Assembly: GCF_011074955.1 (NCBI RefSeq)
Contig: NZ_WUQJ01000028.1
Location: forward strand, 1 to 64,000
DNA length: 64,000 bases
Direction: 5' to 3'
DNA from: Marinobacter caseinilyticus
Lineage (GTDB): Bacteria > Pseudomonadota > Gammaproteobacteria > Pseudomonadales > Oleiphilaceae
The notes beneath the pieces are model-generated. The model was not told where the DNA came from and ran no database searches. It saw only the letters and a program-made list of their open reading frames with translations. Below, in pieces: positions 8,456-21,109 of the stretch. The translations under genes were made by a program, and so were the position numbers. How positions within the stretch are numbered: the first letter of the stretch is position 1; each line of letters opens with the position of its first letter.

Positions 8456-9502
8456 CTAGCCGACATGGTCGCTTGCCCGCCATTGCTGCAAGAAGCTTTC
8501 CGCGCTCTCAAACGCGCCTTCCACCCGACCGCCGTGAAGCCAGTCACCAATGACGCCCACCTGCGATTCCGCAAACCACAAATGACCGGGGCCAGTGGGT
8601 GAACTGGATTTAGCGTACAGCCAACGGTGAGCCAGCGTCGTTTCAGGAGGCTGCAGACACCCCGTTGCCAACTGGAATGCGTTCAAAAGACTGTCGGTTA
8701 CCGCCGTGGAAGATGCGTTCTGGTTGACATCGGACCAATCGGGCTTGCCGTGCAAAACCCACCATTCGCCGTTGTCCTGCCGACCTGGCTTGCTACTGTT
8801 ATTCGCAGCCCACTGAAGGATGTCGCTGTAGGGCTGCATGCCCTGGTAGTCGAGCCCCAACGAGTCTTTAAAGTGAACGACCACGGTCCAGCAGGCCTGC
8901 ATCTTTTCAATGTGCGGTTGGAGTTCGAGCGCGTGTGAGGCCATGCCGCTGGCCTCAAGGAAATCACGAGCTTGCGCCGGCGGCGCGGTGACGATGATCG
9001 CATCGAACAGACCCTGGTGCTGCCCCTCAGTGTCCATGAGCTGCCACTCGCCATTATCGGTACATGCCATTGACCCGATTCGGGTCTCATACCGGATATT
9101 CAGGTTCGTCGACAAAGCTCTCGTTATCGCGGTCATTCTCGGTGAGCCTACATAGCGGGTCGCTGGCCTGAAGCCCTCCCAACAACCATCCTGGCACTGA
9201 TACCTCAGTGTTGCAGGCCACTCCTGATAGGTGTCTGTTCCGGCATGTTTATCAAGGAAATGCCGAAAATCGGGGTTTCGAATGGTAAAATACTGCGCCC
9301 CTATATCGGCCGACCCGCTGTGATCTCCCTGAGTGGGCAGTCTTTTGGCGGCCAGGCGGCCACCCGGCCCGCGGCTTTTCTCGAACACAGTGACCTCAAG
9401 GTTCAACGCCTGGAGTCGATGCGCCACAGTAAGGCCAGCTATCCCTGAACCAATGACGGCAATCCGGCGTATATGGCGTTTATCTTCAGGATCATTAAAC
9501 AT
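8456..9502 (-). CDS. NAD(P)/FAD-dependent oxidoreductase (COG3380, renalase-like)
   Basis: Flavoprotein with the dinucleotide-binding motif GSGIAGLTVAHRL near the N-terminus, EKSRGPGGRLAAKR, and a C-terminal GDWLHGGRVEGAFESA, which matches the flavin-contacting end of the COG3380/amine-oxidase-like family. The substrate is unknown. An alternative TTG start at 9553 would add 17 residues; ATG at 9502 fits the usual family N-terminus. It is divergent from the fatty-acid-modification operon across about 100 bases, so it may be co-regulated with it (inference). Confidence 0.85.
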   Translation of the reverse strand: MFNDPEDKRHIRRIAVIGSGIAGLTVAHRLQALNLEVTVFEKSRGPGGRLAAKRLPTQGDHSGSADIGAQYFTIRNPDFRHFLDKHAGTDTYQEWPATLRYQCQDGCWEGFRPATRYVGSPRMTAITRALSTNLNIRYETRIGSMACTDNGEWQLMDTEGQHQGLFDAIIVTAPPAQARDFLEASGMASHALELQPHIEKMQACWTVVVHFKDSLGLDYQGMQPYSDILQWAANNSSKPGRQDNGEWWVLHGKPDWSDVNQNASSTAVTDSLLNAFQLATGCLQPPETTLAHRWLYAKSSSPTGPGHLWFAESQVGVIGDWLHGGRVEGAFESAESFLQQWRASDHVG

Positions 9503-9605
9503 TTTATAGAGTGCATCCAGACATAGGGTGGTTAACGTAAATCCGACAGGCAAAAGGCAATTGAATACTGGGCCTCACCAATTTTCGAAAAAGGGTAAGC
9601 AGGGT

Positions 9606-10559
9606 ATGACCCGAGTGCAAAACTGGCTAACGAACATCCAAAGGTGGTTCGATTCAAGCGCACAATCAGATCACTTAGACACCGAATCACGAGACTTCAA
9701 TGTTATCAGGGTACTACCATTCATAGCCTTGCATCTGGCCTGTCTGCTTGTTTTCGTGGCAGGAACAACCCCGTTTGCGATCGCTTTTGCAGTGTCGTTT
9801 TTTTTCCTCAGAATGTTTGCAATTACCGGTTTTTATCATCGCTATTTTGCTCATAAGACGTTCAAAACAAACCGCTTCTGGCAGTTTATGTTTGCTCTTC
9901 TGGGCGCCAGTGCCGCCCAGCGTGGACCTTTGTGGTGGGCGGCTCACCATCGGCACCATCACCAGCATTCCGATGACCCGGAAGACCTGCACTCCCCTCA
10001 CCAGGACGGTTTTTGGTGGTCCCACGTCGGCTGGTTCACTTGCGATGCCGGCTTTGCCATGGATGAGCGTCGGGTTCGCGATTGGCTGAAGTTTCCCGAA
10101 TTGCGGTTTATCAACCGATTCGACGCACTCGTGCCGGCTCTGACAGTGCTGGTGATCTACCTGCTTGGTGAAGGGTTGGCAGCCTGGATGCCCCAGCTCG
10201 GCACCAATGGATTCCAGCTGGTGGTTTGGGGATTCTTCGTCTCAACCGTTGCCCTGTTCCACGCTACCGTGTCCATTAACTCATTGGCTCATGTCTGGGG
10301 CAAGCGCCGGTTTGAAACCAGCGATGATAGCCGCAATAACGGCTGGCTCGCACTGATCACTCTGGGCGAGGGCTGGCACAATAATCATCACCGCTGGCCT
10401 CAGTCGGCACGTCAGGGGTTTCGGTGGTACGAAATTGACATGACTTATTATCTGCTTTGGATGCTGGAGAAAGTTGGCGTCGTCCATGATCTGAACCCGC
10501 TGCCGAAGCATATTCAGGAAGAAACCCGTCACCTGGACAACGTTCAGAGGAAACGCTAA
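9606..10559 (+). CDS. Acyl-CoA/acyl-lipid delta-9-type fatty acid desaturase
   Basis: Membrane di-iron desaturase of 317 residues. The three histidine boxes are intact: HRYFAH, HHRHHHQH and EGWHNNHH. Hydrophobic segments near residues 35-75 and 160-215 flank them. It would insert a cis double bond into a saturated acyl chain, giving the substrate that a CFA-type methyltransferase needs. The ATG at 9606 is preferred; an upstream start at 9528 adds 26 unconvincing residues. It is the first gene of an eight-gene operon, and its stop shares one base with the next start. Confidence 0.92.
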   Translation: MTRVQNWLTNIQRWFDSSAQSDHLDTESRDFNVIRVLPFIALHLACLLVFVAGTTPFAIAFAVSFFFLRMFAITGFYHRYFAHKTFKTNRFWQFMFALLGASAAQRGPLWWAAHHRHHHQHSDDPEDLHSPHQDGFWWSHVGWFTCDAGFAMDERRVRDWLKFPELRFINRFDALVPALTVLVIYLLGEGLAAWMPQLGTNGFQLVVWGFFVSTVALFHATVSINSLAHVWGKRRFETSDDSRNNGWLALITLGEGWHNNHHRWPQSARQGFRWYEIDMTYYLLWMLEKVGVVHDLNPLPKHIQEETRHLDNVQRKR

Positions 10560-11029
10560 TGGTACAACAACAGATCCCCCCTTCGATCCAGGGTATGCCA
10601 GCACTTGAAAACACCACCATGGAACGTTTTCGCGTCCTGTTTAACCAGATGTCCAGCGGACACCTTGGTGCATTGGATGAGGTCTATCATGGAGACATCG
10701 TCTTTACTGACCCGTTTACGACTGTTACTGACCTGACGGGACTGCGGGAATACTTTACAGGTGCCTACTTAAACGTCATTAGCTGCCAGTTTGAATTTGG
10801 TGATGCAATCGGTGAAGGCAAGGACGTCTGTTTGCCGTGGGTTATGAAATTACGCCACAAACGGATTCGTAAAGGCGAACTGATCAAGGTTGATGGTATT
10901 TCCCGACTGGTGTTTTCCGATGGTCTGATTGTGGCGCATCGTGATTACTTTGACGCTGGCCAGTTATTGTATGAAAACCTGCCGGTGCTGGGGACAGCGG
11001 TACGTTGGTTAAGGAAGCACGCAGCATGA
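10559..11029 (+). CDS. NTF2/SnoaL-like protein
   Basis: A 156-residue cone-shaped NTF2-like fold protein, judged from family pattern: an N-terminal helix pair, IVFTDPF, and a beta-rich C-terminal half. Proteins of this type commonly sit in the same operon as SDR, FAD oxidoreductase, DUF1365 and CFA-like genes in proteobacteria. The role is not known; it may be a small isomerase or hydratase, or a binding protein. It overlaps the desaturase stop by one base and the SDR start by four (ATGA). Confidence 0.8.
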   Translation: MVQQQIPPSIQGMPALENTTMERFRVLFNQMSSGHLGALDEVYHGDIVFTDPFTTVTDLTGLREYFTGAYLNVISCQFEFGDAIGEGKDVCLPWVMKLRHKRIRKGELIKVDGISRLVFSDGLIVAHRDYFDAGQLLYENLPVLGTAVRWLRKHAA

Positions 11030-11826
11030 GTCATCATCGCCCTGCGCCGATGACCATCTGGCTGACCGGCGCCACCTCTGGCATCGGCTACGCGGTTGCG
11101 GAACGGCTCATCGCCGACGGTCATCACCTGATCGCAACCGGGCGCCGTAAAGCCCCGCTTGAGACTTTGGCGGCCTTGGCCCCCGACCGGGTCACACTCG
11201 CTGCCGGGGACACGTTGAATAAGGAAGATGTGGCAACAATAGGCGGGACCTTAGTCGCCCATCAGCCAGTCCAAATGGCAATTTTAAACGCAGGTACGTG
11301 TGAATACCTGGACATTGCCGAGTTTCGCAGTGAGGTCATTGAACACAACATCATTACCAATGTGATCGGAACCGCTCGCTGTGTCGAGGCGGTACTGCCA
11401 TCTCTCAGGGCTGCACGCAAACAAGGCCTCTCCGCGCGGCTGGTCATTGTCAGTTCGTCCGCGTGGTGGTTTCCGTTTGGTCGGGCAGAAGGGTACGGCG
11501 CCTCCAAAGCAGCATTAACCTACTTTGCCCAATCGTTGAGGGCCGACCTGGCGGCCGAAGGCATCGCCGTCTCGGTGGTGTCGCCCGGCTTCGTGAAAAC
11601 GCCTTTGACTGACCAAAACGACTTCGAGATGCCCTTTCTGATCAGCTCAGGCGATGCAGCGAACCGGATTGTGGACGGGCTGAACAAGGGCCGCTCCGAA
11701 ATCCAGTTTCCAAAACGCTTCACCTGGACCCTAAAGGTTATCGGTGCCCTGCCCCAGAGCTTGATCGACCGCATGGCCGCCAGCATGACACGAAAACAAC
11801 ATCAGCAGCAGGAACATCATGAATGA
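11026..11826 (+). CDS. Short-chain dehydrogenase/reductase
   Basis: SDR-family NAD(P)H oxidoreductase of 266 residues. The cofactor motif TGATSGIG is at about residue 16, NAG follows, and the catalytic residues lie in VSSSAWWF...YGASK (Ser, Tyr, Lys). The ATG at 11026 forms an ATGA overlap with the preceding stop; an earlier TTG is less likely. It probably reduces or oxidises a lipid-linked carbonyl or alcohol in the operon's pathway (inference from context). Confidence 0.9.
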   Translation: MSHHRPAPMTIWLTGATSGIGYAVAERLIADGHHLIATGRRKAPLETLAALAPDRVTLAAGDTLNKEDVATIGGTLVAHQPVQMAILNAGTCEYLDIAEFRSEVIEHNIITNVIGTARCVEAVLPSLRAARKQGLSARLVIVSSSAWWFPFGRAEGYGASKAALTYFAQSLRADLAAEGIAVSVVSPGFVKTPLTDQNDFEMPFLISSGDAANRIVDGLNKGRSEIQFPKRFTWTLKVIGALPQSLIDRMAASMTRKQHQQQEHHE

Positions 11827-13088
11827 GTGACCAACGCCAGCGCATTGCCATTGTGGGAGCCGGGGTATCCGGTTTAACCACCGCCTGGTTGCTAGCCCAG
11901 AAGCACGACGTCGAAATTTTTGAAGCCGGCAACTACCCCGGCGGTCATACCAATACCAGGCCCGTTGAGTCTGACGGCCGGATTTTGCCAGTCAATACCG
12001 GATTCATAGTGTTCAATGACTGGACGTACCCGAATTTTATCAAACTGATGGATCGGCTCGGTGTCGCCTCGGAAGTCAGCGACATGAGCTTCAGTGTGGA
12101 TTGCGACACTACCGGGCTCGAATACAACGGCACTAACTTGAACACTTTGTTCGCACAGCGTCGTAACCTACTTAACCTGCCATTCCTTAAAATGATTCGC
12201 GAGATCCTTCGGTTCAATCAAGAGTCCAAACAGGATCTGGCGTCTGGTGCAATCAACGATTCCGAAACCCTGGGTGATTATCTCAATCGAAACGGTTACT
12301 CCCGGTATTTCAGAAACTATTATGTGGTGCCTATGGGTGCCGCTATCTGGTCGGCGCCGGAACTGGTCCTGGAACAGTTTCCTATCCGGTTCTTCCTGCA
12401 GTTCTTCAATAACCATGGCATGCTTTCGGTGGACGACCGCCCGACCTGGCGAGTTATTTCCGGCGGCTCCGCCCGTTACGTTGACCGCATGATGGAAACA
12501 TTGGCGCCCGTCACGCATTTGAACAGCCCCGTAACCAGGGTGCGGCGTTTCGACGACCGTGTCGTGCTGACGGCGAATGACAAAGAGCAAACGTTTGATC
12601 AGGTCATCTTTGCCTGCCACAGCGATCAGGCCCTGACCATGCTGGACGACGCGACAGACGCGGAACAAGAGGTTCTGGGTGCCATTCCGTATCAAAACAA
12701 CGACGTGGCATTGCACACCGACGATTCGCTGTTACCAGATCAAAAACGTGCCTGGGCCGCCTGGAACTACTTCATTCCGGCCCACAGCACCGAGCCGGTT
12801 TCGGTCACCTACAACATGAACATCTTGCAGAATTTCCACAAAGCCTCAGAGACGTTTTGCGTGACACTTAACCGTAGCCACGACATCGACCCTGCCAAGA
12901 TCATCGAGCAGTACCAATACTCTCACCCGGTGTTCAGCCTGGAGGCCGTTGCAGCTCAGGGTCGCTACGACGAAATCGGGGGCAAAAACCGGAGCCATTT
13001 CTGCGGTGCGTACTGGTTTAACGGCTTCCATGAGGACGGGGTTAAAAGTGCCCTTCGCGTTACAGAAGCCTTCGGGGTGGAGTTGTAG
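11823..13088 (+). CDS. FAD-dependent amine-oxidase-like oxidoreductase (COG2907)
   Basis: Flavoprotein of 421 residues with GAGVSGLTTAWLL, the family signature EAGNYPGGHTNT, and a C-terminal FCGAYWFNGFHEDGVKSA. COG2907 proteins occur with CFA-type methyltransferases and DUF1365, and flavoproteins paired with such methyltransferases act in methyl-branched or furan fatty acid synthesis in other bacteria (from memory). The start overlaps the SDR stop by four bases. Not related closely enough to the COG3380 gene upstream to suggest a simple duplication. Confidence 0.9.
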   Translation: MSDQRQRIAIVGAGVSGLTTAWLLAQKHDVEIFEAGNYPGGHTNTRPVESDGRILPVNTGFIVFNDWTYPNFIKLMDRLGVASEVSDMSFSVDCDTTGLEYNGTNLNTLFAQRRNLLNLPFLKMIREILRFNQESKQDLASGAINDSETLGDYLNRNGYSRYFRNYYVVPMGAAIWSAPELVLEQFPIRFFLQFFNNHGMLSVDDRPTWRVISGGSARYVDRMMETLAPVTHLNSPVTRVRRFDDRVVLTANDKEQTFDQVIFACHSDQALTMLDDATDAEQEVLGAIPYQNNDVALHTDDSLLPDQKRAWAAWNYFIPAHSTEPVSVTYNMNILQNFHKASETFCVTLNRSHDIDPAKIIEQYQYSHPVFSLEAVAAQGRYDEIGGKNRSHFCGAYWFNGFHEDGVKSALRVTEAFGVEL

Positions 13089-13090
13089 CA

Positions 13091-13999
13091 ATGGAACGCA
13101 GGCAGCCCCCTCCGCTGACCAGTCAATGGCTGGAGGGCACCGTCAGGCATCGGCGCCTGACGCCGGTGTCTCACGAATTTCTCTACCGTACCGGCATGCT
13201 GGCGCTGAACCTTAAAGAATGGACCGACGTCCCAAAGCTCAGCCGCTGGTTTTCGCTGGAACGCTTCAACTGGCTGTCACTGTGCCGCCGTGACTACTTC
13301 AAACCTGAGGCCACCAGCCTGAAGGACGCAGTCTGTGATCAGGTTGAACAAGCCACCGGTTGGCGCCCGGATGGCGACATAGAGTTAATTACCCACCCAC
13401 GATACCTCGGGTACGTGTTTAACCCGGTGAGCTTTTATTTTTGCTATGCGCCTGGGGACAACCCTCAAGAAGGCGCGGTACCCAGGGTTATTGCCGCCCA
13501 GATCACCAACACCCCATGGCACGAGCGCCACTTGTATTGTCTGGAGAGCGGTGAAGGCCGCGAGACAAAGTCTGGCTGGCACACACAGTCTTTCAGCTTT
13601 CAGAAACGGTTTCATGTCTCACCATACAACCCGATGGATCAGCATTACCGATGGCTGTTTGCTTTCCGGGACAACGAATTACGCATCCACATGAACGTGC
13701 TGAAAAATGACCAGAAGATTTTCGATGCAACCCTGGAAGTCCAAAGAGTGCCCCTGACTCGTAAATCTCTCCATAGAAGCCTGCGCCAGTTTCCCCTGGA
13801 ATCCTTCAAGGTGGTGGTGGGAATTTACTGGCATGCCCTACGCCTGAAACTAAAAGGGGCTGAATTCCAGACCCACCCGGACAAACTTGACCATCGTGAC
13901 CCCAGTTATCGACTCGGGTCTTCGGATCACGGCGAGCGAGTGGACGAGGTTCAACAACCAAACAACAATGCAACAAAGGTAAGCTCATGGAGAACATGA
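13091..13999 (+). CDS. DUF1365 family protein
   Basis: A 302-residue protein of the DUF1365 family, recognised from the HRRLTPVSHEFLYRTGML opening, the HPRYLGYVFNPVSFYFCY core and the FHVSPYNPMDQHYRW segment. The biochemical function is unestablished; the family is nearly always next to COG2907 and CFA-like genes. It starts 2 bases after the upstream stop and overlaps the CFA-like gene by 13 bases. Confidence 0.9.
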   Translation: MERRQPPPLTSQWLEGTVRHRRLTPVSHEFLYRTGMLALNLKEWTDVPKLSRWFSLERFNWLSLCRRDYFKPEATSLKDAVCDQVEQATGWRPDGDIELITHPRYLGYVFNPVSFYFCYAPGDNPQEGAVPRVIAAQITNTPWHERHLYCLESGEGRETKSGWHTQSFSFQKRFHVSPYNPMDQHYRWLFAFRDNELRIHMNVLKNDQKIFDATLEVQRVPLTRKSLHRSLRQFPLESFKVVVGIYWHALRLKLKGAEFQTHPDKLDHRDPSYRLGSSDHGERVDEVQQPNNNATKVSSWRT

Positions 14000-15258
14000 A
14001 CGCATCTCTTGAGGCCAAAACGGTTAGCACATCCTCGTCGATGACTGACCGATGGGCCCGTAAACTGGTCTGTCAACAACTTGGCGAGCTCAGGGATGGC
14101 GTGCTGACCATCCGGGAGTCGGGTCTTGATGATCAGATCTTTGGTGATGGCAACTCAGATTTCCCCGCGGCAGAACTTCACGTGCATGACAGCAGCACCT
14201 GGCGCGACCTGTTAACGGGCGGCAGTGTTGGCGCAGCCGAAGCGTTCGTCACCGGCGACTGGAGTTCGCCGGATCTGGTGGCGTTGTTGCGCTTTTTTAC
14301 CCGCAATGTTGACCGAATGAACGCCTTTGAGGATCGCTACAGCTGGATAACCAAGCCCACCTTGCGCGGGCTGCACTGGCTTAACCGAAACACACCGGCC
14401 GGGTCACGCAAGAATATTGAAGCTCACTACGACCTTGGCAATGATCTGTTCGAGAGTTTCCTCGACCCCACCATGATGTATTCTTCTGCGATCTACCCGG
14501 ATGATCAGGCCTCCCTCGATCAGGCCGCGGTTCACAAACTGGATACGATTTGCAAAAAACTCGATTTGCACCCGGGTGACCGTGTCATCGAGATTGGCAC
14601 TGGCTGGGGTGGCTTTGCCATACACGCGGCAAAACACTATGGCTGTCACGTCACGACAACCACCATTTCCAACGAACAATGGCAATGGGCCAAGGCAAAG
14701 GTTGACGAAGCCGGGCTGTCGGATCGCATTACCTTGCTGTTTGATGACTATCGTGACTTGACCGGAACTTTCGACAAATTGGTGTCCATCGAGATGATTG
14801 AGGCCGTTGGTCCCCAATTTTTGGACAGTTACCTGGGACAGATCAACACCCTGCTCAAACCCGACGGTTTGGCGCTGATTCAAGCGATCAACATGCCAGA
14901 GCAACGGTATCAGCGAGCGTTAAAGAACGTTGATTTTATTCAGCGGTTTATTTTCCCTGGAAGTTTTATTCCGTCGTTTGGTGCCATCCTCGATTCAGTG
15001 AGGACCCAGAGCAACCTGGTGCTGACGCACGCAGAAGACCTCGGATTTCATTACGCCCGCACCCTGCACGACTGGTGTGCGCGCTTTATGACGAACCGTG
15101 ACCATATTCAGTCTATTGGCTACGATCAGGCCTTCCAGCGCCTTTGGCACTTTTACTTCGCATACTGCGAAGCCGGCTTCAGTGAACGTGCCATTGGCGT
15201 ATCGCAACTGTTGCTGGCCAAACCTGGCAACAAACGCAGGAACATCCTGAGCCTATGA
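13987..15258 (+). CDS. Cyclopropane-fatty-acyl-phospholipid synthase family methyltransferase
   Basis: SAM-dependent enzyme acting on acyl double bonds; 423 residues. The SAM-binding motif is at about 200-209 (VIEIGTGWGG). Compared with E. coli Cfa, the active-site Glu is kept (E272 in MIEAVG, E239 in Cfa), but the bicarbonate ligands Cys139 and His266 are replaced by S167 (YSSAIY) and Q299 (LIQAI). The product may therefore be a cyclopropane or a methyl or methylene branch. AAAGG precedes the ATG at 13987. It overlaps DUF1365 by 13 bases and DUF2878 by 4. Confidence 0.92.
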   Translation: MENMNASLEAKTVSTSSSMTDRWARKLVCQQLGELRDGVLTIRESGLDDQIFGDGNSDFPAAELHVHDSSTWRDLLTGGSVGAAEAFVTGDWSSPDLVALLRFFTRNVDRMNAFEDRYSWITKPTLRGLHWLNRNTPAGSRKNIEAHYDLGNDLFESFLDPTMMYSSAIYPDDQASLDQAAVHKLDTICKKLDLHPGDRVIEIGTGWGGFAIHAAKHYGCHVTTTTISNEQWQWAKAKVDEAGLSDRITLLFDDYRDLTGTFDKLVSIEMIEAVGPQFLDSYLGQINTLLKPDGLALIQAINMPEQRYQRALKNVDFIQRFIFPGSFIPSFGAILDSVRTQSNLVLTHAEDLGFHYARTLHDWCARFMTNRDHIQSIGYDQAFQRLWHFYFAYCEAGFSERAIGVSQLLLAKPGNKRRNILSL

Positions 15259-15779
15259 TTCAGTCCAGCAGCGTCCGTAATGTGCTCAACTTTGTCCTGT
15301 TTCAGATCGGCTGGCTGGTGTGTGTCTTGTATCCGGGCATGCTGACCGCAGCGACCGCGTTCTGCCTTGTCGGCGTTCACCTGGTGCTAGTCAGTCAGCG
15401 GCCCCGGCAGGAGTTTCAATTTATTGTACTGGGCACGGCCGTCGGTGCGCTGTTGGACGGACTTTGGTTTCGGACAGGCGTGATGACGGACACGTCCGGT
15501 GCCGCTGTGGTTTGGACACCGGTATGGATCGTCGGTGTGTGGGCAGTCTTTATGACCACCCTCGCCCACTCATTGTCCTGGGTTAAACAGCGGGTCTGGC
15601 TGCCCTATGTGCTCGCACCGATTGCGGGTCCGTTCGCTTACTGGAGCGCGAGCCGGCTTGGAGCTGTGACGTTGCCTGACCTGACGGTGTCTTTGTTGGC
15701 CCTGGCGCTGGGATGGTTCGTGGTGTTTCCTTTGTTGCTTCACATTCAACAACGATTTTTCCGGAGCCTGACGCCATGA
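15255..15779 (+). CDS. DUF2878 membrane protein
   Basis: A 174-residue polytopic inner-membrane protein with about five hydrophobic segments and few charged residues, matching the DUF2878 family. The family recurs at the end of CFA-like operons; its function is unknown. It is coupled by four-base overlaps on both sides. It could anchor the soluble enzymes at the membrane (speculation). Confidence 0.85.
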   Translation: MIQSSSVRNVLNFVLFQIGWLVCVLYPGMLTAATAFCLVGVHLVLVSQRPRQEFQFIVLGTAVGALLDGLWFRTGVMTDTSGAAVVWTPVWIVGVWAVFMTTLAHSLSWVKQRVWLPYVLAPIAGPFAYWSASRLGAVTLPDLTVSLLALALGWFVVFPLLLHIQQRFFRSLTP

Positions 15780-16546
15780 CAGCGGGTCACAAAGTACTGT
15801 GGGCAGGACTGCTACTAGCCACAGGCCTAAGCCAGGCAACGGCAGCTTCCAATTGGATGTTTGTCGGTAAGGCCTACAACGCGGACGATAGGAGCACATT
15901 GCTTTATGAGGAGCACCACCGGGTCGAGGGTGAATGTGGCCGCGACGGATGGCACCCCATCCGACATCAAATTGACTACAGAACACCCGGATCCGGAGAG
16001 GTGTTTGCCCATAAGACCTTGGACTATCAGCGCTCAGACTTGATGCCCAGCGTGGAATTTGAACAACCAATGTTTGACGAACGCATGACCATTACCAACC
16101 TTGATAACTCTCAGTTGAGTATCGAGTGGTTAAGCAATGGTAAAGACCTCAAACAATTTCGGGTGAACGTCGACGACAATGTCGTCGCGGATGCCGGGTT
16201 CGATAACCTTGTCCGGGAACATTGGTCTGGCCTACGGAAAGGCAGGGACATCGACTTTCGTTTCCTGGCGCCAACAAGAGGCGAGCACTACGGCTTTACG
16301 CTGGCCAGCGTGGACGATCCCCGGATCCGCAGCGACGTCGCCCTTGAGATCAGGCCCAGCGGCGTGATTATGGGTCTGCTGGTTGATCCGATTTTGCTGG
16401 GGTATAACGCAGAAGGCTACCTGACCGATTACATTGGTCTGACTAATATCCGCAAAAATCAGGATGCCAACTACATCGCACACATTCGTTACCACCACGG
16501 CCAGCCGCCAACGTGCGCCCTGGTTCCTGATATCGATCAACCTTAA
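15776..16546 (+). CDS. Exported protein of unknown function, last gene of lipid operon
   Basis: A 256-residue protein that I do not recognise. It has a clear Sec signal peptide (hydrophobic core at about residues 7-20, ending TAAS), so it is periplasmic. The mature part is beta-rich, with several YDYQRSD- and EWLS-like strands, and lacks a lipobox; mature cysteines are few. Coupling by an ATGA overlap to DUF2878 makes it part of the same pathway. Superficially its place in the operon resembles that of DUF3833 lipoproteins in related clusters, but it is not one by sequence. Confidence 0.85.
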   Translation: MTAGHKVLWAGLLLATGLSQATAASNWMFVGKAYNADDRSTLLYEEHHRVEGECGRDGWHPIRHQIDYRTPGSGEVFAHKTLDYQRSDLMPSVEFEQPMFDERMTITNLDNSQLSIEWLSNGKDLKQFRVNVDDNVVADAGFDNLVREHWSGLRKGRDIDFRFLAPTRGEHYGFTLASVDDPRIRSDVALEIRPSGVIMGLLVDPILLGYNAEGYLTDYIGLTNIRKNQDANYIAHIRYHHGQPPTCALVPDIDQP

Positions 16547-19040: not shown

Positions 19041-19364
19041 ATGACCCCTAACGAGATCGATTACTTACAAATGCAGGCCTCCGCCGAACGTGCCAGCCAG
19101 TTCCTGAAATCGCTGTCACATCAGGGCCGGCTGCTGCTGTTGTGCCAATTAAGCCAGGGTGAACTCGGCGTCAGTGAGCTGGAAAAATTAACGGACATAC
19201 AGCAACCGTCACTGTCACAACACCTGGGGGTGCTTCGTCGCGATGGTTTGATCGCGCCAAGAAAAGTCGGCAAGAGTGTGTTTTACCGGATTTCCGACCC
19301 CAATGTATTAACCATGCTGCAACAGCTTTATGTCATGTTCTGTAACTCCGGAGAAAACCAATGA
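19041..19364 (+). CDS. ArsR-family persulfide-responsive regulator (SqrR/BigR-like)
   Basis: A 107-residue winged-helix repressor. It has just two cysteines, C35 (LLLLCQLS) in helix 2 and C101 (YVMFCN) in the C-terminal helix, the spacing of the reactive-sulfur-sensing pair of SqrR and BigR; the arsenic-type CxC site is absent. The recognition helix lies in QQPSLSQHLGVLRRDGLI. The ribosome site is weak. It overlaps the next gene by four bases and heads a six-gene sulfur operon, so it probably represses the operon until persulfide links the cysteines. Confidence 0.88.
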   Translation: MTPNEIDYLQMQASAERASQFLKSLSHQGRLLLLCQLSQGELGVSELEKLTDIQQPSLSQHLGVLRRDGLIAPRKVGKSVFYRISDPNVLTMLQQLYVMFCNSGENQ

Positions 19365-19801
19365 TTTCCATCGACTGGTCTGCGTTTACCCCCTGGGCCT
19401 CGCTTATTGGCGGAGTTTTGATCGGATTGTCAGCCGCTGCCTTTATCCTGCTAAGCGGTCGGATTGCAGGTATCAGTGGCATTCTTGGCGGGCTCTTTAA
19501 CCCTCATAAATCGGACGTGGTCTGGCGGCTGATGTTTCTAGCCGGCTTAATCGGTGCGCCTGTGGTCTGGCTGGCGTTCAATACCCTACCTGCGATTGAG
19601 ATCGAAGCCGGGGCGCCGGTGATTATCATTGCGGGTCTGCTGGTCGGTATCGGTACTCGCTATGGCTCCGGTTGCACCAGTGGTCATGGTGTGTGTGGCT
19701 TATCACGGTTATCGCCACGCTCTCTGGTCGCTACAGTGAGTTTTATGTTGGCAGGATTTCTGACAGTTTTCCTGGTGCGGCATCTGCTGGGAGGGAATTA
19801 A
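19361..19801 (+). CDS. YeeE/YedE-family sulfur transporter, subunit A
   Basis: Inner-membrane half-transporter of 146 residues with about four transmembrane helices. It carries the family motif GSGCTSGHGVCGLSRLSPRS, whose cysteines are thought to pass thiosulfate or another sulfur species in TsuA-like channels. Paired half-length YeeE/YedE genes (PmpAB type) next to a BigR/SqrR regulator are a recurrent arrangement. Direction of transport is not established. Confidence 0.88.
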   Translation: MISIDWSAFTPWASLIGGVLIGLSAAAFILLSGRIAGISGILGGLFNPHKSDVVWRLMFLAGLIGAPVVWLAFNTLPAIEIEAGAPVIIIAGLLVGIGTRYGSGCTSGHGVCGLSRLSPRSLVATVSFMLAGFLTVFLVRHLLGGN

Positions 19802-19803
19802 TC

Positions 19804-20229
19804 ATGAAAAATGCCATTACAGCGTTGCTGGTCGGATTGGTTTTTGGTGTCGGTTTATTGCTGTCTGGCATGGCGAACCCTGCCAAAGTACTTGGTTTCC
19901 TGGATATTGCGGGGCCATGGGACCCCTCACTGGCACTGGTTATGATCGGTGCCATTGCTGTCGGCATGGTGGCCTTTTCCATGGCGGCAAAACGCACTAA
20001 ATCGTTGTTGGGCAACGACATCAAGCTGCCGGCCAGTCGCTCGATTGATAAACGTCTTATCGTTGGCAGCCTGTTATTCGGCGTTGGCTGGGGGCTGGCG
20101 GGGTTTTGCCCCGGCCCGAGCCTGGTGGCGCTGGGCGCGGGCGAATCCAAGGCCTTCATATTTTTTATCGCCATGGTCGCGGGTATGGCACTGTTTGAGT
20201 TCATCGAACGATCCCGAATCCGGGGCTGA
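19804..20229 (+). CDS. YeeE/YedE-family sulfur transporter, subunit B (DUF6691-type)
   Basis: A 141-residue membrane protein with about four helices and the second-half motif GLAGFCPGPSLVALGAG. It starts at ATG 19804, 2 bases after the subunit A stop, with GGGAGG upstream. It is expected to dimerise with subunit A to form a complete channel equivalent to one full-length YeeE/TsuA. Confidence 0.88.
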   Translation: MKNAITALLVGLVFGVGLLLSGMANPAKVLGFLDIAGPWDPSLALVMIGAIAVGMVAFSMAAKRTKSLLGNDIKLPASRSIDKRLIVGSLLFGVGWGLAGFCPGPSLVALGAGESKAFIFFIAMVAGMALFEFIERSRIRG

Positions 20230-20239
20230 GGAGGAAAAA

Positions 20240-21109
20240 ATGTCCATAGACCCCATCGTCATTGCTTTTTTTGATAAAGACACCAATACCTACAGCTACG
20301 TGGTCAGAGACCCGGAGTCCAAGTCTTGCGCCGTGATCGATTCGGTGCTCAATTATGATGCGGCATCCGGCAAAACCGGCACCGAACTGGCTGACACCCT
20401 CATCGACTATATCCGCCAGGAAGCACTGACGGTTGAATGGATATTGGAAACCCATGTCCATGCGGATCATTTATCGGCAGCACCGTATCTCCATTCCCGG
20501 CTTGGCGGTAAAACAGGCATAGGCGCTAATATTCGTATCGTTCAGGAAACGTTCGGGAAGGTGTTTAATGTAGGCTCGGAGTTTGCCCGGGATGGACGCC
20601 AGTTTGACCGGCTGTTCACGGATGGCAGTATGTTGAATATTGGCCACTTGATTTGTCGCGTCATGCATACGCCCGGCCATACACCGGCCTGTCTGACGTA
20701 CCTTATTGGTGATGCGGCGTTTGTCGGTGATACTCTGTTCATGCCGGATTACGGCACCGCCCGCTGCGACTTTCCAGGGGGCGATGCCCGGGCGCTGTAC
20801 CGTTCGATCCAGAAGCTGATGGCCTTGCCGCCCACCACCCGAGTGTTCCTTTGCCATGATTATGGGACACCGGACCGTGAGCATTTTCAGTACGAGACCA
20901 CCATCGCAGATCAACGCCAGTTCAATGTGCACATACACCAGGGCGTAAGCGAAGAAGAGTTTGTCAGAATGCGGACTGAGCGCGACGCCACACTGAAAAT
21001 GCCGAACCTCCTCTTGCCCTCTGTGCAGGTCAATATGCGTGCCGGCCATTTGCCACCCCCTGAGGACAACGGCCAACGCTACCTGAAAATACCCCTGAAT
21101 TTATTTTAG
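20240..21109 (+). CDS. Persulfide dioxygenase-like MBL-fold protein (ETHE1/Blh type)
   Basis: Metallo-beta-lactamase-fold enzyme of 289 residues predicted to oxidise glutathione persulfide to sulfite. It has the metal motif THVHADH, a second-ligand segment MHTPGHTPACL, and DTLFMPDYGTARCDF, typical of the ETHE1/Blh class. AGGAGG precedes the ATG at 20240; a longer overlapping frame from 19949 is not used. In some relatives the DUF442 phosphatase/rhodanese-like module is fused to this domain (Blh); here it is the separate next gene. Confidence 0.9.
   Translation: MSIDPIVIAFFDKDTNTYSYVVRDPESKSCAVIDSVLNYDAASGKTGTELADTLIDYIRQEALTVEWILETHVHADHLSAAPYLHSRLGGKTGIGANIRIVQETFGKVFNVGSEFARDGRQFDRLFTDGSMLNIGHLICRVMHTPGHTPACLTYLIGDAAFVGDTLFMPDYGTARCDFPGGDARALYRSIQKLMALPPTTRVFLCHDYGTPDREHFQYETTIADQRQFNVHIHQGVSEEEFVRMRTERDATLKMPNLLLPSVQVNMRAGHLPPPEDNGQRYLKIPLNLF

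Follow-up and report, generated by a model that had tools for sequence, protein, structure and literature searches.

An operon of eight genes in Marinobacter caseinilyticus very probably makes a furan fatty acid, presumably a monomethyl one, that is carried in the membrane phospholipids; a desaturase encoded by its leading gene would feed the pathway, and a sigma-E/ChrR pair would induce it. The operon lies at positions 9606-16546 on the + strand of the window, by which we mean the whole stretch of 64,000 nucleotides analysed (contig NZ_WUQJ01000028.1, positions 1 to 64,000; assembly GCF_011074955.1). The host genome is 4.31 Mb in size, and the completeness of the assembly is rated at 100%. 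The core of the furan pathway is already known. What sequence comparison suggests in addition is the assignment of this operon to the pathway, a desaturase as its fixed partner, and a likely control in trans; also new are a predicted fold for the last protein of the operon and a furan reading of an operon in Stenotrophomonas.

Fish, plants and bacteria contain furan fatty acids, which act as natural radical scavengers. Should our reading hold, the pathway tested in two alphaproteobacteria would also be a Marinobacter trait and, together with its desaturase partner, would span several phyla, including plasmids of Acinetobacter.

The operon and its assignment to the furan pathway

The genes of the operon are as follows.

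9606-10559, + strand: membrane fatty acid desaturase (SCD1/DesC-like), operon leader (PF00487 FA_desaturase, 87.9 bits)
10559-11029, + strand: NTF2/SnoaL-like protein (PF12680 SnoaL_2, 51.5 bits)
11026-11826, + strand: short-chain dehydrogenase/reductase, SDR (PF00106 adh_short, 113.4 bits)
11823-13088, + strand: UfaD-like flavoprotein, putative methylated fatty acyl desaturase (PF01593 Amino_oxidase, 88.3 bits)
13091-13999, + strand: UfaO-like DUF1365 protein, putative furan-forming oxygenase step (PF07103, 251.7 bits, cut-off 25)
13987-15258 (start 13987 or 13996), + strand: UfaM-like S-adenosylmethionine (SAM) methyltransferase (CMAS, 268.6 bits)
15255-15779, + strand: DUF2878 membrane protein (PF11086, 123.7 bits)
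15776-16546, + strand: exported protein with a predicted LolA/DUF1849-like fold (predicted model; no Pfam match)

By the sequence, six of the seven junctions between the eight genes are overlaps and one is a gap. The overlaps are of 1 nucleotide (desaturase/NTF2), 4 (NTF2/SDR), 4 (SDR/flavoprotein), 13 (DUF1365/CMAS; 4 with a start at the second ATG, 13996), 4 (CMAS/DUF2878) and 4 (DUF2878/last gene), and the gap, of 2 nucleotides, separates the flavoprotein and DUF1365 genes. The start codons of the SDR (ATG 11026) and of the last gene (ATG 15776) were placed from the sequence, each giving a 4-base overlap. A preliminary description of this DNA had proposed a coupled eight-gene operon and had named the gene families; the junctions agree with this, and Pfam supports the names of seven of the eight genes, the remaining one, described as an exported unknown, matching no Pfam family.

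Within the genus, 77 of 81 genomes (own included) have a match to DUF1365, in two pieces in G035 and G036, and four have none. Of the 76 other matching genomes, 40 were examined, namely the closest and the most distant, and the eight-gene order is intact in 39 of these 40 loci. The arrangement is therefore not due to chance, and the eight genes form an operon. The neighbourhood comparison that the preliminary description had proposed for the desaturase and the last gene thus finds both retained with the operon in 39 of the 40 loci. The sole exception, L089 (genome G071), has no desaturase, DUF2878 or last gene, and its NTF2 and UfaD matches are each split into two pieces, in a manner that resembles decay.

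The UfaM, UfaD and UfaO steps were demonstrated in Rhodobacter sphaeroides and Rhodopseudomonas palustris by other workers (PMC7380195; here and below, papers are cited for the passages that bear on these genes). In R. sphaeroides the SAM methylase UfaM acts first, RSP1091 is UfaD, and RSP1090, which has a DUF1365 domain, is UfaO; in R. palustris the trio of UfaD, UfaO and UfaM is both necessary and sufficient to form the furan fatty acid, RPA2571-2569 giving the same product (PMC7380195). In Halomonas the three genes follow one another directly, and E. coli given its UfaM forms the methylated intermediate (PMC12089945). PMC3528120 cites the occurrence of furan acids in Shewanella putrefaciens and Marinomonas communis, among others.

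By homology with these systems, the UfaM of the window would transfer the methyl group of SAM onto a cis-monoenoic acyl chain to give a methyl-branched olefin, the UfaD flavoprotein would then introduce a second double bond, and UfaO would close the furan ring with O2, the furan fatty acid ending up in the membrane phospholipids. We suggest that the leading desaturase supplies UfaM with cis-monoenoic chains (probably delta-9) on demand from saturated membrane lipids, and that the modified lipid, or what arises from its oxidation, is handled or transported by the SDR, the NTF2-like and DUF2878 proteins and the exported LolA-like protein. The sigma-E/ChrR pair, located elsewhere in the genome, probably induces the operon under stress of the singlet-oxygen type.

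For comparison, R. sphaeroides and R. palustris were represented by loci of consistent gene order, standing in for their actual proteins. The sample taken across the phylum contains eleven loci that belong to one family, almost all of which have an extracytoplasmic function (ECF) sigma factor and ChrR beside UfaD and UfaO. Loci L181, L182 and L187 have the order UfaD, UfaO, MFS, DUF3833, SDR, with no UfaM nearby, which is consistent with RSP1091-1087, where we take RSP1089 to be the MFS protein. Their UfaO is 250-252 residues long (published length 250), DUF3833 186-191 (186), SDR 243-264 (245) and MFS 428-434 (402). The window flavoprotein is 39-43% identical to the flavoproteins of the eleven loci, and is thus of the UfaD type, and the window UfaO carries PF07103 (DUF1365), as the published UfaO does.

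Since the flavoprotein and the DUF1365 protein match the UfaD and UfaO types, and the methyltransferase sits in the UfaM clade (below), furan is clearly favoured as the predicted product. The preliminary description had expected a modified membrane fatty acid, which might be a cyclopropane, a methyl branch or a furan; the expectation stands, with the first two now ranked lower. Its comparison with 10-methyl systems finds no support, the window flavoprotein being of the amine-oxidase family. The 10-methyl (Bfa/Tmp-type) systems have a flavoprotein of the FAD_binding_4 type, and they were ranked below furan on finding that the only Pfam matches here are Amino_oxidase, NAD_binding_8, DAO and NAD_binding_9.

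The window thus shares the UfaD, UfaO and UfaM gene types with RPA2571-2569 of R. palustris and with ufaD-ufaO plus ufaM of R. sphaeroides, and the gene order implied by the R. palustris locus numbers is the same as here. It differs from both in having a desaturase, NTF2-like, SDR, DUF2878 and LolA-like gene in the same operon, although the R. sphaeroides operon holds an SDR too. In R. sphaeroides the ufa genes are linked to sigma-E/ChrR, whereas here the pair is not adjacent. Halomonas sp. YLGW01 has consecutive ufaD, ufaO and ufaM as in the window, and the passages on this set describe no desaturase (PMC12089945).

In the sample taken from the order, DUF1365 is matched in 106 of 145 genomes. 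Among 40 hand-picked loci of the 101 outside the genus, UfaD, UfaO and UfaM occur together at 39 (L120 lacks UfaD), and a desaturase lies inside the set in four. Across the phylum, UfaD is matched (E 1e-40 or better) in 92 of the 299 genomes sampled.

Some observations weigh against the proposal. Among the papers listed on Marinobacter fatty acids, none, judged by titles and the openings of abstracts, reports a furan acid or 11-methyl acid; two papers on Marinobacter species name nothing but ordinary major acids, among which minor ones would not show (PMC4157798, PMC10971456). The roles given here to the desaturase, the SDR and the other accessory genes are guesses, because neither R. sphaeroides nor R. 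palustris requires a desaturase gene other than UfaD, and RSP1087-1089 are dispensable for the furan acid of R. sphaeroides (PMC7380195).

The methyltransferase and the predicted product

In a tree of 37 rows, the window methyltransferase falls within a clade of 28 rows (support 99/95), made up of CMAS proteins encoded at loci with UfaD and UfaO; the clade is defined by this linkage, R. sphaeroides UfaM being outside the rows of the tree. E. coli Cfa and the two other CMAS proteins of the genome fall outside the clade. FufM-like proteins form a separate group, their label resting on that group and on their neighbours, with a reference other than R. palustris FufM. Some branches are long, row L177_alpha_392 is unreliable, and two of the 14 chosen loci of the order (L119 and L143) gave no UfaM row.

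The CMAS matches in the genome are two Cfa-type proteins (292.8 and 286.5 bits), UfaM (about 270 bits) and a remainder below 32 bits. The FufM-like reference protein scores 147.6 bits on the same model. R. palustris has FufM; in the genome of the window no FufM-like protein was found, the strong CMAS matches being only the two Cfa-type proteins and UfaM, and for this reason a monomethyl furan fatty acid is our best guess for the product.

Five residues of E. coli Cfa hold a bicarbonate ion (PMC3132707), and Glu239, His266 and Tyr317 are described as its ligands (PMC11387697). His266 is replaced by Gln in the window UfaM and in 160 of the 162 proteins counted, and at the position of Cys139 a Ser or an Ala is found in 149 of them. 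The count omits L177_alpha_392, and the two rows without Gln are L235, a Nitrospira CMAS with neither UfaD nor UfaO, and L177_alpha_533. When only non-Marinobacter representatives of less than 70% mutual identity are considered, 91 of 93 have Gln. The position is His in all four Cfa and all five FufM-like proteins, as it is in the solved relatives (five of five pairwise alignments). With Gln at this position and a placement outside the clade of E. coli Cfa, the window protein does not group with Cfa. It was considered whether the change from His266 to Gln is the mechanistic cause of olefin rather than cyclopropane formation. This idea was dropped because cotton cyclopropane synthases carry the same Gln (PMC3132707), and for the same reason the residue is a mark of the clade only and no proof of product. 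An Arabidopsis protein has been compared with both UfaM (34% identity) and UfaD (39%) in PMC10940516, where the UniProt entries of the reference proteins are given as Q3IYV7 (UfaD), Q3IYV8 (UfaO), Q3J4I7 (UfaM) and Q6NBA4 (FufM).

The desaturase as a regular partner of the pathway

The desaturase resembles SCD1 (4ymk, E 2.3e-24) and shares about 50% identity with two genes of cyanobacterial plasmids, of which one is annotated desC1, and this makes delta-9 specificity the natural guess. Orthologues (E 1e-50 or better) are present in 13 of the 145 genomes sampled from the order, and in all 13 the gene lies upstream of UfaD, either adjoining it directly or with NTF2, or NTF2 and SDR, in between. 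A scan of a contig collection with a desaturase alignment gave at least 593 stretches, 588 of them encoding a relative, of which the best 80 were kept. Among these best 80 of at least 588 relatives, UfaD is nearby at 66 loci, UfaO at 64 and UfaM at 63, and the whole trio at 62, this last being a raw linkage count with no background rate for unrelated genes beside UfaD. Excluding ten loci of Marinobacter type, all of them complete, the three ufa genes are present at 52 of 70 loci. The 18 loci lacking the complete trio include six from Nitrospira and some on contigs that end early; others, such as L255 and L280, have long flanks free of ufa genes.

Among the matches listed, complete sets occur in Xanthomonas, Stenotrophomonas, Lysobacter, Rhodanobacter, Acinetobacter, Achromobacter and Porticoccus, and in metagenome bins of Verrucomicrobiia, Planctomycetota, Gemmatimonadota, Nitrospinaceae and Melainabacteria. 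The desaturase is thus a regular partner of the pathway in many bacteria. The preliminary description had judged a leading desaturase odd; it does lead the operon, and 62 of the best 80 relatives show linkage to the ufa genes. Among the papers listed on furan fatty acids, Ufa proteins, DUF1365 and DUF1295, none, judged by titles and by sections of the papers, describes this desaturase as a partner of the pathway.

In two Acinetobacter plasmids the desaturase gene overlaps ufaD by 4 bases. The order lipocalin-desaturase-ufaD-ufaO-ufaM-DUF1295 is found in L200 (7007-12075 of the Acinetobacter pseudolwoffii plasmid NZ_CP084301.1) and in L201, where a FufM-like methyltransferase follows DUF1295. 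Both plasmids are typed as mobilizable, and the furan gene set may therefore travel on plasmids. In L202 (6321-8918 of the Acinetobacter baumannii plasmid NZ_CP053219.1) the lipocalin is kept, only part of the desaturase is matched, without annotation, and no annotated ufaD, ufaO or ufaM follows this remnant; the set looks lost.

A tree of 40 hand-picked desaturase rows fails to separate members linked to ufa genes from unlinked ones. The linkage label changes 7 times on the tree, against a mean of 11.2 for shuffled labels, of which 2 in 500 reach so low a value. Of the 37 inner branches 22 are open, and the long rows L152 (a paralogue from the same genome) and L130 are placed without meaning. 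The desaturase loci L148-L150 of the same genome were left out, having no BLAST match to the window desaturase. In the Nitrospira metagenome-assembled genomes (L232-L236 and L238) the stretch examined around close relatives of the desaturase contains neither ufaD nor ufaO, and these relatives form a group of their own in this tree.

What the desaturase contributes can be read in more than one way. Tentatively, it may be a dedicated fourth enzyme that makes a delta-9 monoene for UfaM, yielding furan acids not previously described, with the ring nearer the carboxyl end. The predicted acids would be 8,11-epoxy-9-methyl acids formed from 16:1 or 18:1 delta-9, in Marinobacter, Acinetobacter, Stenotrophomonas, Verrucomicrobia and others, and would differ from the 10,13-epoxy acid that Rhodobacter derives from vaccenate. 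We consider this detailed proposal rather doubtful. There is a sizeable chance, though well short of even, that the furan pathway is right and that the desaturase is simply a general, stress-induced enzyme of membrane fluidity outside furan synthesis. R. sphaeroides and R. palustris form furan acids with the three Ufa enzymes alone (PMC7380195), which counts against a dedicated role. In Marinobacter salarius and M. similis the main unsaturated acids are 16:1 omega-7, 18:1 omega-9 and 18:1 omega-7 (PMC4157798), so that the known substrate of UfaM would be available with or without the desaturase. The genome also has four other matches to FA_desaturase above the cut-off, and the six Nitrospira loci hold relatives apart from ufa genes. 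Against a mere fluidity enzyme stand the retention of the desaturase with the ufa genes in all 13 genomes of the order and in most of the best 80 loci, over several phyla, and the overlap with ufaD in the Acinetobacter plasmids. Much less probable is a reading in which the methyltransferase is one more cyclopropane synthase and the operon yields a cyclopropane or a simple methyl-branched fatty acid. The protein is a member of the CMAS family, and besides the cotton enzymes with their His-to-Gln change there is the observation that E. coli carrying Halomonas ufaM showed cyclic fatty acids beside the methylated one (PMC12089945); the authors of a study on Stenotrophomonas maltophilia interpret a matching operon (discussed below) as one for cyclopropane synthesis (PMC11832516). 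Set against this, the window protein sits in the UfaM clade and outside Cfa, the genome already has two other Cfa-type enzymes, and homologues of UfaD and UfaO, which act after methylation, are linked to UfaM at 39 of 40 loci.

Regulation, the last protein and the Stenotrophomonas operon

Two features lie upstream of the operon.

9513-9539, + strand: promoter-like element GCATCC-N17-CGTA, candidate sigma-E/ChrR-type promoter, conserved upstream of Marinobacter desaturases
8456-9502, - strand: divergent flavin adenine dinucleotide (FAD) oxidoreductase, sharing the intergenic region and outside the operon (Amino_oxidase, 67.8 bits)

The genome has its own ECF-ChrR pair on another contig (C31), not adjacent to the operon, in keeping with the preliminary description, which saw no sigma factor at the locus and stated that similar sets elsewhere follow sigma-E/ChrR genes. 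Indeed, an ECF gene lies upstream on the opposite strand in 20 of the 40 loci of the order from other genera, and in 16 of those the next gene is NTF2 or UfaD. Elements of the type TGATCC-N16-CGTA in other genera number 14 on the operon side (12 N16, 2 N17) and 16 on the ECF side, all N16. In the genome studied here TCATCC-N16-CGTA precedes the ECF-ChrR pair.

In the 40 Marinobacter regions upstream of the desaturase (the window and 39 loci), CATCC-N17-CGTA is found in 26, compared with 0.02 expected from mononucleotide shuffles, a figure which, the sequences being related, is not a probability. At the remaining spacings between 10 and 25 there are three occurrences, one each at 16, 23 and 25. 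In 31 of the 40 regions an ATCC-N16 or N17-CGTA form is present. On alignment, the N17 block is conserved while its flanks and its distance to the start codon are variable. Over the whole genome, ATCC-N16/17-CGTAA has 44 matches against 20 in the control. Three pattern matches near four photolyase loci, unmapped with respect to the photolyase starts, have no bearing on co-regulation.

A precedent for regulation from a distance is the locus PSPTO_1121-1114 of Pseudomonas syringae, which lies away from the sigma factor gene and is bound by its product, with ChIP-seq support (PMC5507510). As in the window, homologues of RSP1091, RSP1090 and RSP2144 and an SDR are found in one locus; unlike the window, it starts with phrB, and the word 'desaturase' is absent from the paper (PMC5507510). 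Given this precedent and the conservation of the N17 element, control of the operon in trans by sigma-E/ChrR appears likely.

It is nevertheless conceivable, though in our estimate less likely than not, that the operon is not under sigma-E/ChrR in Marinobacter, and is transcribed with another sigma factor or constitutively. Several points lean this way besides the location of the pair on another contig: the window spacing is N17 and not the N16 of most ECF-ChrR promoters, nine of the 40 Marinobacter regions have no element, and GCATCC-N16-18-CGTA is at background in the genome (16 matches, 15 in the reversed control). Moreover, the exact TGATCC-N16-CGTA of four loci (L096, L097, L104 and L105) may be coding sequence, since it lies within the region of the start of the divergent FAD gene, where other loci read TGAACC. 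Regulation by sigma-E/ChrR is favoured by the conservation of the N17 element in 26 of 40 regions at varying distances from the start codon, by the precedent in P. syringae, and by the relative in Stenotrophomonas, where the same GCATCC -35 precedes the matching genes, in the form GCATCC-N16-CGTA and on both sides.

The start of the divergent FAD oxidoreductase was placed at 9502 from a conserved AAACAT, the alternative of the open reading frame finder being a TTG at 9553. Relatives of this protein occur near ufa loci in several other genera and are unmatched in L089, L106 and L107 of the same genus; it is a possible regulon mate.

The last protein of the operon has no match to Pfam or to any sequence family. 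Its structure is predicted with good confidence (predicted local distance difference test score, pLDDT, 91.7). The best structural match is DUF1849 (6ntr_C, Z 11.8, root mean square deviation 4.6 over 201 residues), followed by DUF1089 (2h1t, Z 10.1), with LolA proteins weaker (Z up to 8.7). The model thus predicts a LolA/DUF1849-like fold, which would suit a role in handling lipids in the periplasm. Relatives are found at 72 of the 189 loci searched. The UfaO model (pLDDT 93.7) resembles fatty-acid-binding, nitrobindin and spirocyclase barrels with Z of 7.1 or less, which is the level typical of models without a clear match, and for this reason no mechanism is drawn from it.

The furan reading can be extended to an operon of Stenotrophomonas, the published effects of which concern MD and CAZ, taken here to be menadione and ceftazidime. 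In S. maltophilia, smlt2375-smlt2367 is reported as a sigma-E/ChrR operon of nine genes; without chrR its genes are raised 165- to 697-fold (in RNA-seq done once), and deletion of the operon almost undoes the increased MD tolerance and CAZ susceptibility seen in the chrR deletion (PMC11832516). The word furan is absent from the paper (PMC11832516). The match to S. maltophilia rests on published annotations and on the gene order in S. sepilia, and not on protein comparison. Annotations shared with the window are a periplasmic protein, a desaturase, a FAD protein, a cytosolic protein, CMAS and a membrane protein; the S. maltophilia operon is annotated with two CMAS, membrane proteins and a lipocalin, and is under sigma-E/ChrR control (PMC11832516). 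In S. sepilia (L296) the order is last-gene homologue, desaturase, UfaD, UfaO, UfaM, DUF2878, DUF1295, FufM-like, lipocalin, the first gene being homologous to the last gene of the window. The Stenotrophomonas operon differs from the window in having DUF1295, the FufM-like enzyme and the lipocalin, and the S. sepilia locus has no NTF2 or SDR. If the furan reading is true, a Stenotrophomonas operon that affects superoxide tolerance and beta-lactam susceptibility would be a furan-lipid operon and not a cyclopropane one.

Elsewhere in the window, at 19041-21109, there is what we take from the translations to be an ArsR-like regulator, two membrane proteins and a metallo-beta-lactamase-like open reading frame, which together resemble a sulfide-responsive set.

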